Part shown: positions 3,584 to 14,142 of the stretch, piece by piece
How the letters are laid out: each line of letters starts with the position of its first letter
Numbering within the stretch: the first letter of the stretch is position 1
Source: a virus
Length of the DNA: 56,096 bases
Reading direction: 5' to 3' (one strand)
IMG/VR virus record: IMGVR_UViG_3300021185_001851
Coordinates: 1-56,096 of that record
Notes under the pieces: model-generated
The model's input: only the letters and a program-made list of their open reading frames with translations
Told to the model about the DNA's origin: nothing
Database searches by the model: none
Translations under genes and position numbers: made by a program

Positions 3584-4234
3584 TTATGTTAGCCTCCTGC
3601 TAAAAATACTAAGGATCTTTTTCTGTAAACCTTCGTCTGCGTTTGGGTATAGATCTTTTACAATTCTTTCTTGTTCCTCTGTACTTCCGCTTGCAAACAT
3701 ACTTCTAATCTCTGATGCACTTCCTGCTGTTTGCCCTGCAACTGTAAACTTATAATCTTTAACAGGATATATGTACCCATGTCCAGGGCGTTCTGTTCCT
3801 TCACCTTTGTCGTTTGTAAAAGGTTTCATCTTACCACCTGTGTACTTTTGAAAATAAGAAGGCGAACCATTTTTTAATGGTGTGAACTGAAATCTAGGAT
3901 CTTCTTGCATATCCTTTGATCCTACTCCAAATACCATAACATCTGTGTTAGGATCAAGACCTAATGCAGTTGGTAATATCTTTGGATTATAAGGAACCGG
4001 TTCTTCAATAACCTGGCTTGGATTAATACCCGTTGCTTGTATCATTGCTTTTTTCTCGTCAAAAGAAAAAGGACTCTTATTCGGCTCTACTTTGCCGCTA
4101 GAAGCGATATAAGTATTGTTAATGCCAAACTTAGACGCTAGTTCTTTATATGCAGAAGCATGTCCATGATGGAACGGATGAAACCTTCCACCATAAATGG
4201 CAATTACTTGGGGTTGCAAATCACTAATTTTCAT
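3584..4234 (-). CDS. HIGH-type nucleotidyltransferase (cytidylyltransferase/NMN adenylyltransferase fold)
   Basis: The N-terminus has the class-defining signature GGRFHPFHHGH (residues 15-25), where the HxGH histidines bind nucleotide phosphates. SASEIRSMF (172-180) fits the second conserved site, usually (S/T)xxR. This fold transfers a nucleotide onto a phosphate group; substrates in the family include NMN, nicotinate mononucleotide, FMN, pantetheine phosphate and choline phosphate, and the sequence does not say which applies. The gene is first in the minus-strand baseplate operon and has its own late-type promoter (4254-4261), so it is expressed with virion genes. Similar genes are common accessory genes in marine T4-like phages. 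Fold certain, substrate unknown. Confidence 0.82.
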   Translation of the reverse strand: MKISDLQPQVIAIYGGRFHPFHHGHASAYKELASKFGINNTYIASSGKVEPNKSPFSFDEKKAMIQATGINPSQVIEEPVPYNPKILPTALGLDPNTDVMVFGVGSKDMQEDPRFQFTPLKNGSPSYFQKYTGGKMKPFTNDKGEGTERPGHGYIYPVKDYKFTVAGQTAGSASEIRSMFASGSTEEQERIVKDLYPNADEGLQKKILSIFSRRLT

Positions 4235-9363: not shown

Positions 9364-9930
9364 ACACATTGGCAAGCTATCTACTGATAGGTTAGTGCAA
9401 GCCGTTTATATTGCACCCATAAAATCTGGATCAATTAAGGATCGCAGAGGACGGAAGTTCTGAGCAGTAGCAGAGACATATCACCACTATCCTTGACAGG
9501 ACGTAGTTCAAACAGCATGAAACTGGACTGGTGTATGTATAGTATTGCTAAAATGAGTAGGCTCTGGTGAACTATTACAACCTACATAACAATAGAATTG
9601 GTTTGGTTTGGTTCTATTTGTTTGCGTTATTACAGTCTAGTGTAAAAGGGTACCGCGTAACCGCCCTAACAGAAATGTTGCTTTAACCAAAGTGTGGTAG
9701 AGGTCTGTGTCAAGACAACCATTTATCTTAGCCCCTAAACGGGGCTAAGTGTGGATAGTTAATCTATGTCAAGCTAAACTTAAAAATATTAGAGTCAAAC
9801 TTATATAATAAAAACTATGTGTTATCGTTTGAAATATAAAATTGAATGAGTAGAGCAACGCGATACGATATTCATGGACGAAGTATTCGTCCTGTAACTG
9901 ATTCTTAACAATGTTAATGAGCAACTCTGG
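9364..9930 (+). ncRNA. Gene-free stretch with candidate structured RNA (strand uncertain)
   Basis: No protein gene fits in these 567 bases, unusual in so compact a genome. The stretch is dense in inverted repeats: GTGCAA/TTGCAC (9395-9400 with 9411-9416); AAGGAT/ATCCTT (9437-9442 with 9489-9494) enclosing AGGAC-GGAA-GTTCT (9448-9461); ATAAC and AATAGAA paired with TTCTATT and GTTAT (9586-9597 with 9612-9630); a perfect 9-bp stem CTTAGCCCC/GGGGCTAAG (9727-9735 with 9741-9749); and a perfect 7-bp stem GGACGAA/TTCGTCC (9876-9882 with 9886-9892). None of the two strong hairpins is followed by a T run, so they are not ordinary terminators. It lies between convergent genes and could be transcribed by read-through. 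I cannot place it in a known RNA family. Confidence 0.45.
9727..9749. repeat. Perfect 9-bp inverted repeat, 5-base loop
   Basis: CTTAGCCCC and GGGGCTAAG flank the loop TAAAC. It is the strongest hairpin of the gene-free stretch. It lies between convergent operons, where a bidirectional terminator would be expected, but neither strand has the following T tract, so it may be an RNA domain or a barrier of another kind. Confidence 0.8.
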
Positions 9931-10158
9931 CTAACGCATCTGATTAGCAATACCCTTTTTACCATACATTGTATCTATCTTCTCTTTAACTACTTCTGAT
10001 AAGATTACTCTGTCAGTGTATGGCATATCCCATACAACTTGTATAGGGTTGCTACTCCAAACACTTAAATTACATATATCTTGGGTTAGGGCTCTTGACT
10101 CAGATTCAAAACTTTCGATATACTTTGTAATCTTATTTGAATCAGTTCCTAGACTCAA
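9931..10158 (-). CDS. Second tail assembly chaperone ORF (gpT-like), reached by -1 frameshift
   Basis: This 75-codon frame opens with TTG overlapping the TGA stop of the gp26-like gene (TTGA) and has no convincing ribosome site. It lies in the -1 frame relative to that gene and stays open upstream through a T8 slippery run (10169-10176), so a -1 shift there would append 79 residues to 293 of the first ORF, giving a product of about 372 residues. The sequence (VVWDMPYTDRVILSEVVKEK) resembles the short helical second domain of lambda GT-type tail assembly chaperones. The adjacent, divergent gene is the tape measure, the usual client. T4 gp51 may be the counterpart. The frameshift is inferred from sequence. 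Confidence 0.6.
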   Translation of the reverse strand: MSLGTDSNKITKYIESFESESRALTQDICNLSVWSSNPIQVVWDMPYTDRVILSEVVKEKIDTMYGKKGIANQMR

Positions 10159-10178
10159 GAGCCTTCGGAAAAAAAACT
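10137..10178 (-). promoter_or_regulatory. Programmed -1 ribosomal frameshift signal
   Basis: On the minus strand, zero-frame codons AGT TTT TTT TCC contain the canonical slippery heptamer T TTT TTT (complement of 10170-10176). Eleven bases later the arms TTGAGTC (10158-10152) and GATTCAA (10143-10137) form a 7-bp stem with an 8-base loop, extendable by TCTT/AAGA with a small bulge. A slippery heptamer plus a stem-loop at this spacing is the usual architecture of -1 frameshifting, as in lambda G/GT. Confidence 0.7.
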
Positions 10179-11048
10179 TGTTGGATCAAAAAGCATATCT
10201 GTTTTGTATTCTTCTTGGCAAAAATCACATTTAGCTGAAACTTCTCTGATAATTCCAAATTCTTGGAATGCTTTTAATTCTTCTTCTAACCTATCAACTG
10301 AGCCTCTGTCGAGGTTACCCAACCAGTCAGCAATAAATTTTATATCAGTTATTTCTTGTGGTTCTGCTTCTCCGGTACCTGGGATAACAACTTTAAGAAT
10401 TGCGCCAATCATTAAGTCATGACTTAGATCAACTAATTGAGCAAAGCCTGCATTTGCAATTTCAGTTTGTCTTTCTACTGGTTCTTCTCGTTGTTCACTT
10501 GACTGTAATGCCCTCATCGAATCAAATTGCATTCGTAGTAAACGTGATTGATCTTTTAAATTATACGGTCTTAGATGTACTTCTAAGTTATTTGCAAGTT
10601 TCACGATGCCTAATTTAGCTGGAATTGGCTTTAATGTACCAATTATCTGTCCTAAACTTACATTTATTCGTTGAGACTTACCATCAGACTCGTTACAGCC
10701 ATGACTGATATCCATTGGCATATCGTCTCCGTAACTTGCCATTTTAATTGCAACTAAAATCATATCAACATCTGCTGACGGAACTTCATCAACATCAGCA
10801 ATGTCTGGACAAGAACTTTTGATTACACCTCTCATTGCTTCACCGTTAAATAAAGCGTCAGGGTTTTTAAGGCGTAATTCGTCTTTTGCAGTCATTGGAT
10901 ATATTGCAAGTTCCCCGCTTTCAGTTAACTTAGGTGGCTGTTTATAGTATCTTCCATTAGAAGGAAGAGTAATATATGTTCCAGGTTGCCTAAAATAATC
11001 CGATAAAGGGTTAGCAGTTTGCCCGGAAAGTGGGTTTTTATTATCCAT
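10155..11048 (-). CDS. gp26: gp26-like baseplate hub / tail assembly chaperone protein
   Basis: A 297-residue protein of the T4 gp26 type. The N-terminal YFRQPGTYITLPSNGRYY and YPMTAKDELRLKNPDALFNG segments are typical of this family, followed by helical and mixed domains and a C-terminal cysteine pair in CDFCQEEYKTDMLFDPTSFF. In T4, gp26 is needed for baseplate hub assembly and is thought to be related to tail assembly chaperones. Its last codons contain the T8 slippery run that leads into the downstream -1 frame. It is transcribed away from the tape measure gene, from a shared intergenic region. Family call good; chaperone role inferred from frameshift architecture. Confidence 0.75.
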   Translation of the reverse strand: MDNKNPLSGQTANPLSDYFRQPGTYITLPSNGRYYKQPPKLTESGELAIYPMTAKDELRLKNPDALFNGEAMRGVIKSSCPDIADVDEVPSADVDMILVAIKMASYGDDMPMDISHGCNESDGKSQRINVSLGQIIGTLKPIPAKLGIVKLANNLEVHLRPYNLKDQSRLLRMQFDSMRALQSSEQREEPVERQTEIANAGFAQLVDLSHDLMIGAILKVVIPGTGEAEPQEITDIKFIADWLGNLDRGSVDRLEEELKAFQEFGIIREVSAKCDFCQEEYKTDMLFDPTSFFSEGS

Positions 11049-11142: not shown

Positions 11143-14142
11143 ATGGAAGAAGAATTAAAAGAAGCAATTGGTAAATTAACCGATCAGATTTCCAGTATGA
11201 ATAAACAAACAGGCTCAAGACCTGGTGGAAGTCGTGGATCTACAGGTCCTAAAGTTGATGCTACTGCTTCGGCAATGGACAAACTAAAAGATGGGGTCAA
11301 AGGTACTACTTCAAGTTTAAAGAAAACTGCTGAATCAAACGAAAAACTTGTACAAGCATCTAAAAAACTTACCTGGGAGCAAAAATCACAAATAAGAGGA
11401 TTGCAAAATTTTGGTAAAGGATTACTTGACGGAAGTAAAAAAGGACAAGATTCTTTAAACCAGTTATCCGGAGCTCTAACAAATAGCACAGGAAAAGTTA
11501 CTAAAGTACTTGGCGCCTTTGCCGCTGGTTTAGGTTTTGCATGGGGAACATTAGAAAATTTTGCAGATGCCGCTAGAGGAGCAAGTGGAGCATTAAACTT
11601 AGGTGCTGTTGGTGTTGGCTTAATGCAAACACAAAGTATGATGTCAGGACTTGGCAAAGAGTTTGCAACTGTTATTAATGAAAGCGGAGGCGGTTTTAAA
11701 TTATTAGGAGCAACTACAGAAGACGCAGTTAGAAACTTATCTCAAATGTCGAGAGCAGTTAGAAACGGTTCTTCTATGATGGGCAACCTTACAAAAGAAT
11801 TTGGTGTGTCAGCAAAAGCAGTCGACGAAACTGCAAAGTTAACTGCTCAGTTAGGACTTACAGAAAAAGATAGTGCCAGCTTAATGGCCGCTAGTTTAGA
11901 TGTTGCAAGAAGGTCTGGTGCTTCACAAGAAACAGCAATGCAGACTGCAATTAAAAGTTATGCTACTACTGCAAAGACAGCTCGAGGATTAAGCGATCAA
12001 TTTGGTGTTAGTGCCAAGGTAATTATGCAGGCTTCAATGGCTTTCCAGAAATCTATTGCAGGACAAAGAGCCGCAATGCTTGGAGTAGGAACAGATGCTA
12101 CTGAAATCCAAGGAGTAATGGGTCAAATGCTTGGTAATCTAAGCCAAGATCAAAGAGATAGAGCATCAGCCGCAATGGCCGCAGGAGAAATTGGACAAGC
12201 TATTGCTATTGCAACTGAAGGTAAATCTGGAGCAGAAGCAAGTGCAACTGCTGACATGATAAGAATGATATCTGAAGCAAACACCGGAAAAGGTGATGGT
12301 ACAGTTTTACAAGCTCTTAAAGGTATGGAAAATGCTTCCATGGAACAGTTTGCAAGCAGTAGAAACTTTAGAGATCAAAATATGAATGCCGCGGCAGGAA
12401 TTGGCGCCGCATTTAAACGATTAAGTGATGATGCAGATAAGTCTAATAAAGATGCTAAGAAAAATGCAGAAGAAGGTCAAACTACAGAAGCAAGCAATAT
12501 TAAGTCTCTTACACAAATGTCAACAGCCGTTGATTATGCTAAAGGATCATTTTATGGTTTAATAGCAGGTGGTGTTGGATTACTAGGATCGTTTGTATCG
12601 TTAGCGGCCGCAGGTAGTGCCGCCGCTATAGCAATGGGTGGCGGAGGCTTAACAGGAATGTTAGGTGGACTTAGCAAAGGACTTAATAAAATAACATCTG
12701 GTGCGTTAGGATCAGTAGGTAAAGTAGGCGGAGCAGTATCTGGTGCAACCGGAGGAATGCTTAGTAAAGCAAAAGGATTTTTAGGAATTGGAGCAGGAGG
12801 AGGTTCTGCTACTCAGTCTGTACCTGGTGTGCCTAGCACTAAAGGAATGCAAACAGCAGTAGGTGAAGTTAAAAGCCTAGGAAAGATGATACAAGATACT
12901 TTATCAGGTATAGGAAACGGAATTGCAAAATTAGCAAGAGGCATAGGCAGTTCATTATCTTCTATTGGAACAGGAATTTCAAAGTTAGCAAAAGGAATTG
13001 GCAGATCAATGTCCTCTCTTGGTAAAGGTATTGGAGATTTAGGAGAAGGACTAGGTAGAGGAATTGGAAAACTAGTTGAAAGTTCTTTAAAAGGAATTGG
13101 TAAAGGACTTGCCGCAGTATCTAATCCAAAATATTTAATTGGAGCCGCAGTACTAGCCGCAACAGGTGGTGCAATGTGGATTGCTGGAAAAGCATTCCAA
13201 CAGTTTGCAAATATTAATTGGGGCGGAGTAATTGCTGGAGGCATTGCCCTAGCCGCAGTAACAGCAGGTGCCGCATTAATTGGATCATCTGGTATGATTG
13301 CACCTATTCTAATTGGAGCAGTAGCAATTGGAGCTCTTGGAGCCGCACTAATACCATTTAGCTATGCCGCTAAACTTGCAGGCGAAGGAATGGTAGACTT
13401 AGGTAGAGGGTTAAGAATAATTGGTGATGTTCCAATTCCAACGTTACTTGCTATAGGTCCTGCATTAGCATTAATGGGAGTAGGTTTAGCCGCACTTTCA
13501 GCCGCTGGTGCAGTAAGTTCTCTTTTAGGAGCATTCCAAGATGAAGGACCAATTGATAAAATTGTAAAAATTGCCAAAGCCGCTCCTGGTGTTAACTTAA
13601 TGGCTAAGTCTTTAAGAACATTTGGTATTAACATAATGGTCTTTAACAAAGGACTTGAAGGTTTAAGTATGACAGCATTAGATGCTTTAGAAGACTTTAA
13701 TGACGTTGCAAGTAATATATCACAATCTTCTGTAACTGCAATGGCAGATTTAGCAGTAGCAACTTCGTTACTTGGATTTAATATAAAAGATATAGATTGG
13801 AATCAATTAGTTTTACCAGTAGACATTGGTGAAAGATATCATAATTTAGCAGAAGGAATGGTAGCAACTGCTGAAGCAATGGATAAGATGCCTAAGCCAG
13901 GTATGTGGGACACTATTGTTGCAGGTGTAGGCAACTTGTTTGGAGTAAATGGTGGAGAACAAGGTAGCTTGACTGAGTCAGTTCAGAAAGAAAGAACCAC
14001 AACTACAACATACAGCGATGGATCTGTTGATACAAATACAGAGATGATTACAGTTCTTAAGTCTATTGACGGACATATGGGCAAAGTTACTCAGAATACT
14101 AAGAAAGAAGTAACTGTAACAGCACCTCGCTTTGGTAGTTAA
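11143..14142 (+). CDS. Tail tape measure protein
   Basis: A 999-residue protein with tape-measure composition: N-terminal coiled coils, long Ala/Gly/Ser-rich helices, and hydrophobic stretches near residues 470-500 and 665-755 that could cross a membrane during DNA injection. Short Gly/Ile/Leu/Lys repeats (GIGNGIAKLARGIGSSL and variants) fill about residues 585-660. No lysozyme or peptidase motif is evident. Tape measures set tail length and are ejected first; T4 gp29 (590 residues) plays this role, so this longer version predicts a longer tail if scaling holds. Its divergent neighbour encodes the probable chaperones. Start is supported by AAAAGG before the ATG. Confidence 0.8.
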   Translation: MEEELKEAIGKLTDQISSMNKQTGSRPGGSRGSTGPKVDATASAMDKLKDGVKGTTSSLKKTAESNEKLVQASKKLTWEQKSQIRGLQNFGKGLLDGSKKGQDSLNQLSGALTNSTGKVTKVLGAFAAGLGFAWGTLENFADAARGASGALNLGAVGVGLMQTQSMMSGLGKEFATVINESGGGFKLLGATTEDAVRNLSQMSRAVRNGSSMMGNLTKEFGVSAKAVDETAKLTAQLGLTEKDSASLMAASLDVARRSGASQETAMQTAIKSYATTAKTARGLSDQFGVSAKVIMQASMAFQKSIAGQRAAMLGVGTDATEIQGVMGQMLGNLSQDQRDRASAAMAAGEIGQAIAIATEGKSGAEASATADMIRMISEANTGKGDGTVLQALKGMENASMEQFASSRNFRDQNMNAAAGIGAAFKRLSDDADKSNKDAKKNAEEGQTTEASNIKSLTQMSTAVDYAKGSFYGLIAGGVGLLGSFVSLAAAGSAAAIAMGGGGLTGMLGGLSKGLNKITSGALGSVGKVGGAVSGATGGMLSKAKGFLGIGAGGGSATQSVPGVPSTKGMQTAVGEVKSLGKMIQDTLSGIGNGIAKLARGIGSSLSSIGTGISKLAKGIGRSMSSLGKGIGDLGEGLGRGIGKLVESSLKGIGKGLAAVSNPKYLIGAAVLAATGGAMWIAGKAFQQFANINWGGVIAGGIALAAVTAGAALIGSSGMIAPILIGAVAIGALGAALIPFSYAAKLAGEGMVDLGRGLRIIGDVPIPTLLAIGPALALMGVGLAALSAAGAVSSLLGAFQDEGPIDKIVKIAKAAPGVNLMAKSLRTFGINIMVFNKGLEGLSMTALDALEDFNDVASNISQSSVTAMADLAVATSLLGFNIKDIDWNQLVLPVDIGERYHNLAEGMVATAEAMDKMPKPGMWDTIVAGVGNLFGVNGGEQGSLTESVQKERTTTTTYSDGSVDTNTEMITVLKSIDGHMGKVTQNTKKEVTVTAPRFGS

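Follow-up and report, generated by a model that had tools for sequence, protein, structure and literature searches.

Gene layout at the tail chaperone locus

The window analysed here is a virus record of 56,096 bases, IMGVR_UViG_3300021185_001851, taken at its full length. It encodes a gp26-like protein, an ORF overlapping the end of this gene in the -1 frame, and a tape measure protein in the opposite orientation (Table 1). The start codons of the two divergent genes, at 11048 and 11143, are separated by 94 nt, that is, the gp26-like gene is adjacent to the tape measure gene, as in frameshifted tail chaperones. The N part of the window's chaperone belongs to the T4 gp26/gp51 family, represented by PF12322 in Pfam (E 6.9e-10; 39.4 bits against a cut-off of 24.5) and by phrog_150, 'baseplate hub', in PHROG (E 7.1e-15). 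An Rfam Polynucleobacter-1 RNA (RF01718; 91.6 bits, E 2.4e-18) was detected on the plus strand at 9390-9538, in the space that separates a PDDEXK/RusA-like gene from the convergent end of the -1 ORF.

Table 1. Features of the tail chaperone locus in the window
Feature	Coordinates	Strand	Remarks
gp26-like gene, short form of the tail assembly chaperone (TAC-N)	11048-10155	-	297 aa
Slippery heptamer T TTT TTT	10170-10176	-	in phase; within T8 (10169-10176)
-1 frame extension, predicted C domain of the long form (TAC-C)	9931-10170	-	79 aa + stop
5' arm of the long-range stem, GGCUCUUGA	10155-10163	-	6 nt after the heptamer; 0-frame stop at its end
3' arm of the long-range stem, UCAAGAGCC	10090-10098	-	within the -1 ORF
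Tape measure protein gene, divergent neighbour, presumed chaperone client	11143-14142	+	phrog_167 (tail length tape measure protein), E 3.3e-6

Near its end, the gp26-like gene reads AGT TTT TTT TCC, and the heptamer is in the correct phase for a -1 slip. Reading in the 0 frame ends with a TGA at 10157-10155; in the -1 frame, no stop occurs from upstream of the T run, across the slip site, until a TAG at 9933-9931. A -1 shift would yield a fusion of 293 + 79 = 372 residues. Within the first 40 codons of the -1 ORF, the sole start codon is a TTG that overlaps the 0-frame stop, and no Shine-Dalgarno match was found ahead of it. The preliminary description of this locus, which reported an in-phase heptamer, a downstream ORF open back through the T run with only a TTG start and no ribosome site, and a fusion of about 372 residues, was accurate in all these respects. 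Taken with the comparative evidence presented below, the sequence makes -1 programmed ribosomal frameshifting in the tail chaperone gene of the window very likely.

Conservation of the slip site

Related contigs were collected by a scan of viral contigs, from which the 80 best-scoring of 282 stretches were kept; this set is partly redundant and, due to the selection by score, leans to close relatives. All 80 of these best-scoring contigs contain an in-phase TTTTTT close to the end of gp26, with the 0-frame stop 1 to 6 codons past it. The -1 ORF runs on for 75-81 codons in 77 of them; in two others (L033 and L051), it is cut by the contig end, and in one (L067), it stops after 11 codons. The T run is T8 in the eight closest relatives (L001-L008) and T6C in the remaining contigs. 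In L067 (region 3822-3857), where the -1 ORF hits a TAG, the later codons nevertheless stay similar to those of the relatives. Reading of this TAG as an amino acid is unsupported, the three longest ORFs of the locus being free of TAG, and a mutation or a sequencing error remains as the explanation of the early stop.

A second scan, with a cyanophage gp26 as the query, provided the best 80 of 598 matches listed, to which two KVP40-like contigs were added, one of them 100% identical to its query. The in-phase site, together with a -1 ORF, is present in all 82 contigs of this set (80 of which are the best of the 598 matches listed); in L123 and L141, the -1 ORF is cut by the contig end. Among the 25 annotated phages analysed, 19 have the site and a -1 ORF: 121Q, Atu_ph07, PA5oct, Phosso, SCTP-2, RAS14, BF, Munch, XacN1, RaK2, XaC1, CBB, GAP32, Hallingskeid, ZPAH1, S-RIM8, PhiW-14, VH1_2019, and Melnitz-1. 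The site is absent in the other six, namely, T4, Octan, Aes508, Phi1, and the Ackermannviridae 3M and VAP7, the latter two lacking any in-phase heptamer of the X XXY YYZ type. It is likewise absent in the T4-type contigs L194, L195, L196, and L198. Klebsiella phage CPRSA, with a fragmented gp26 region, and L197 and L199, which are two pieces of one T4-type contig, were kept outside these counts.

Chance occurrence of the T run was rejected: in 180 site-bearing gp26 genes, in-phase TTTTTT was found elsewhere at 5 of 46,487 other codon positions, compared with 80 of the 80 related contigs at the slip position. In the window clade, TTT accounts for 89% of Phe codons at other places, so the first Phe codon of the site carries little weight by itself. 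The codon ahead of it, however, is invariably AGT (48 of 48 distinct genes of this clade), although T is the last base in only 47% of the serine codons elsewhere. The heptamer is thus in phase and kept among the relatives.

The T run could also act on transcription, with RNA polymerase adding or dropping a base on T8, such that part of the mRNA would carry the fused frame. The eight T's of the window and its closest relatives (L001-L008) would suit such slippage, but most relatives have only T6C, in phase (TTTTTTC in 156 of 163 distinct genes, TTTTTTT in 7 of 163), and six T's are too short for efficient polymerase slippage. Furthermore, a downstream RNA stem at a fixed spacing, described below, fits stimulation of the ribosome. 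We consider transcriptional slippage highly improbable, the least probable of the readings weighed here, and retain ribosomal frameshifting as the preferred one.

Coding potential of the -1 ORF

The -1 ORF is open and homologous in relatives and evolves under purifying selection. Beyond the 0-frame stop, the median dN/dS is 0.107, with values below 1 in 122 of 122 pairs (window clade, 75-97% identity, drawn from 42 distinct sequences), and substitutions at codon positions 1, 2, and 3 number 967, 529, and 2442, respectively.

An alternative reading is termination-reinitiation, whereby the ORF is translated on its own from the start overlapping the stop (TTGA), and the C domain, at about 75 aa, is released as a separate protein instead of a fusion. 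The TTG overlaps the stop in 8 of 8 window-clade loci examined, an ATG does so in 121Q (L083), PhiW-14 (L099), and VH1_2019 (L100), and the C-domain ORF is annotated as a separate gene in some phages, for example, 121Q and Phosso. However, the TTG has no Shine-Dalgarno match ahead, no start is common to the 39 loci compared, and in PA5oct (L085), the first 40 codons of the -1 ORF contain no ATG, GTG, or TTG. Reinitiation also leaves unexplained both the fixed T run and the N+C-like gp51 of T4 (see below). It appears quite unlikely, if slightly less so than polymerase slippage, and frameshifting remains the reading that we follow here.

The predicted products were modeled with AlphaFold2. The model of the C domain is helical (pLDDT 85.3; 27 rows) and that of the short form is confident (pLDDT 88.5; 25 rows). 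Searched against a viral fold library, the short form is closest to an entry named T4-like baseplate hub assembly protein (E 5.0e-24), and the C domain produced a single match at E 0.001 or better. A Foldseek comparison of the short form with the PDB yielded nothing at this threshold, and further structure comparison gave only middling matches, the best with a Z of 8.0 over 78 residues; hence, we make no claim on the fold of the short form. Taken alone, the C domain of the window matched no Pfam family at E 10, and in PHROG, it showed only a weak match to an unrelated family (E 0.11). The short-form model also matches, in the viral fold library, uncharacterised proteins of the jumbo phages Motura, RSL1, phiEaH2, PaBG, and RSF1 (E 3e-6 to 2.3e-4; query TM 0.44-0.52), and judging from these models, the proteins may be unrecognised tail chaperones.

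RNA structure downstream of the slip site

The preliminary description named a 7-bp stem-loop 11 nt after the heptamer, and such a hairpin is present in the window (TTGAGTC, 10158-10152, with GATTCAA, 10143-10137; one G-U pair). Folding of the 69 nt that include it does not surpass that of shuffled sequence (z +0.68; equalled by 148 of 200 shuffles), and across 58 relatives, 47.5% of its cells are paired compared with 46.4% in shuffles. With both folding and conservation at the shuffle level, this hairpin was rejected as a stimulator. Of the elements that were expected to persist among homologues, the T run and its phase are conserved (80/80 and 82/82) and the named stem is not.

A different stem, of 9 bp, is formed at long range by the two arms listed in Table 1, with a loop of 56 nt. 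The 93 nt of the window containing this stem fold at -23.5 kcal/mol (z -3.29), with 2 of 200 shuffles as good. Conservation was assessed in 58 dereplicated sequences of 94 loci, with controls uncorrected for kinship, and in a set of 47 rows obtained by removing 11 of these (L083, L087, and L088-L096). In the 58 rows, 83.0% of the stem cells are paired, compared with at most 52.7% when the partner is slid by 1-3 columns. Two-sided changes occur at 7 of the 9 pairs, compared with 4.5 in shuffles (8 of 500 as high), and covariation is 0.266 compared with 0.143 +/- 0.013, a value reached by none of 500 shuffles. In the 47 rows, pairing rises to 91.5% and covariation is 0.206 compared with 0.113, neither reached by any shuffle; in this set, however, neither the count of pairs with two-sided changes (4 vs 2.6; reached in 52 of 500 shuffles) nor that of further pair types (9 vs 8.4; reached in 224 of 500) is exceptional. 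RNAalifold recovered seven of the stem pairs unaided from the 47 rows and found no common stem in all 58.

Because the arms lie in coding sequence, a synonymous control was used, in which the codons over the 3' arm were redrawn 1000 times. In the window clade (29 rows), 247 of 261 cells are paired, with a best random value of 186, and in a second jumbo group (18 rows), 144 of 162 are paired, with a best random value of 132, both counts being uncorrected for kinship. The 11 remaining rows, RaK2-like and other distant ones, showed no excess over chance (42 of 99 cells); therefore, the stem belongs to the lineages of the window, not to the RaK2-like ones. By these alignment-based measures, the long-range 9-bp stem is a conserved, covarying element in the window's lineages.

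Some cyanophage contigs (e.g., L126, L128, L132, and L139) contain an 11-bp hairpin spaced 5 nt from the heptamer on its downstream side, in which bases have changed yet still pair; many others lack it. This hairpin is a different possible stimulator.

Relation to gp26 and gp51 of T4

T4 has gene 26 followed by gene 25, with gene 51 divergent. As the preliminary description held, T4 keeps gp26 and gp51 as separate genes, and the slip site is absent there. We compared profiles built from up to 60 of 82 jumbo fusions, up to 60 of 79 cyanophage fusions, eight gp51 sequences, and five gp26 sequences; L192, in which the frame is broken, was omitted from the gp51 profile. The jumbo fusion matches the cyanophage fusion with a probability of 97.0 over 287 columns, spanning the junction; the cyanophage fusion matches T4 gp51 at 97.9, again across the slip junction; and T4 gp26 matches gp51 at 98.4. 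Direct links between the jumbo and T4 profiles are absent (fusion vs gp51, 4.2; C domain vs gp51, 2.6; N part vs gp26, 0.7), so the chain from the jumbo phages to gp51 runs through the cyanophages. In addition, the end of T4 gp51 matches phrog_634, 'baseplate hub assembly catalyst' (E 1.2e-23), and so do six of the 27 C domains compared (best E 2.1e-30); these 27 include six cyanophage or KVP40-like rows.

Given these profile links and phrog_634 matches, T4 gp51 looks like the long form, with N and C parts fused in frame, and the -1 ORF of the window would correspond to its last part only. The preliminary description calls the downstream ORF a chaperone ORF and sets it beside the separate T4 genes gp26 and gp51; this ORF is not a whole gp51 and would be only the C domain. 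The same description left open whether frameshifting is an ancestral or a regained state. The distribution of the site, as opposed to a tree, suggests the former, with loss in the branch of T4 favoured over regain. In a passage of Atkins et al. 2016 (PMC5009743), the G-T frameshift is called widely conserved 'except T4', and the distribution seen here supports this exception as a derived state.

Proposed mechanism

From these data, we infer not only that frameshifting occurs but also its efficiency, the role of the stem, and the chaperone function, as follows. Most ribosomes would read to the TGA and produce the short form of 297 aa, and a minority would shift back by a single base at T TTT TTT, bypass the stop, and produce a long form of 372 aa, consisting of the N part of the short form and an extra helical C domain. 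The ribosome is probably kept on the heptamer by the 9-bp RNA stem, which starts 6 nt past it and is closed, beyond a 56-nt loop, by a strand within the -1 ORF. If the two proteins act like lambda gpG and gpGT, each would bind the tape measure protein, and tail tube subunits would be recruited through the C domain. The stem is a candidate stimulator, and its arms can be tested apart from the coding sequence.

The predicted geometry of the stem, with the 0-frame stop held in the 5' arm (in the window clade) and the 3' arm inside the -1 ORF, bears on regulation. A shifting ribosome must melt the 3' arm, so that a closely following ribosome would meet no stimulator. Speculatively, and with rather low confidence, stem-driven frameshifting in the jumbo lineage could thus limit itself, with the ratio of short to long form varying with the density of ribosomes on the mRNA. 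No such traffic-dependent regulation of tail chaperones turned up in a search of literature listings; if real, it would represent an added regulatory layer for these proteins.

Comparison with known systems

In lambda phage, the chaperone gene lies beside the tape measure gene, with the latter downstream. Low-level -1 frameshifting near the end of the lambda chaperone gene yields the short gpG and long gpGT forms, as outlined in the relevant passage of PMC5009743. The window is similar in having a predicted -1 slip near the end of the chaperone gene, beside the tape measure gene, a likeness of arrangement. It differs in its slip site, T TTT TTY, and in the divergent rather than downstream position of the tape measure gene. 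The lambda G/GT design seen here by the preliminary description thus holds for the predicted -1 frameshift and the adjacent tape measure gene but not for the gene order.

Another parallel is the TAC locus of Pseudomonas phage Adele and of Vandenendeviridae/Andersonviridae. According to a passage of PMC12846349, ribosomes shift by -1 there at a polyT close to the 3' end of TAC-N, and annotations mostly list the -1 ORF as a hypothetical gene of its own. The window locus shares the position of the predicted polyT -1 slip in TAC-N, and in its relatives, too, the -1 ORF can be annotated separately; the Adele-type motif is GTTTTT, and the passage mentions no long-range stem. As for the phages analysed here, the 121Q and Phosso records list the C domain as a separate hypothetical gene, and the PA5oct (L085) and RaK2 (L092) records list no gene for it after the slip site.

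Among T4-like phages, Vladimirov and colleagues reportedly described frameshifting in several groups, and genes 26 and 51 in T4. Their work on T4-like tail assembly chaperones (Vladimirov, Gautam and Davidson 2022, Virology 566:9-15) is cited in passages of PMC10885494 and PMC12846349, the latter referring to it for polyT sequences as established -1 signals in the TAC-N genes of this phage group and the former noting that some T4-like phages have one short gene and one separate, fused long gene. The mechanism is therefore already known in kind, and the idea of a frameshifted T4-like tail chaperone has precedents. For the long-range stem, a search of literature listings, outside the full text of Vladimirov et al. 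2022, pointed to no earlier account. The window locus belongs to the same gene family as the T4-like gp26/gp51 chaperones (PF12322, phrog_150), and it represents a jumbo clade with a conserved long-range stem in the window's lineages. Recoding of a known type is thereby extended to many giant phages, in whose annotations the predicted long chaperone is either split or missed.
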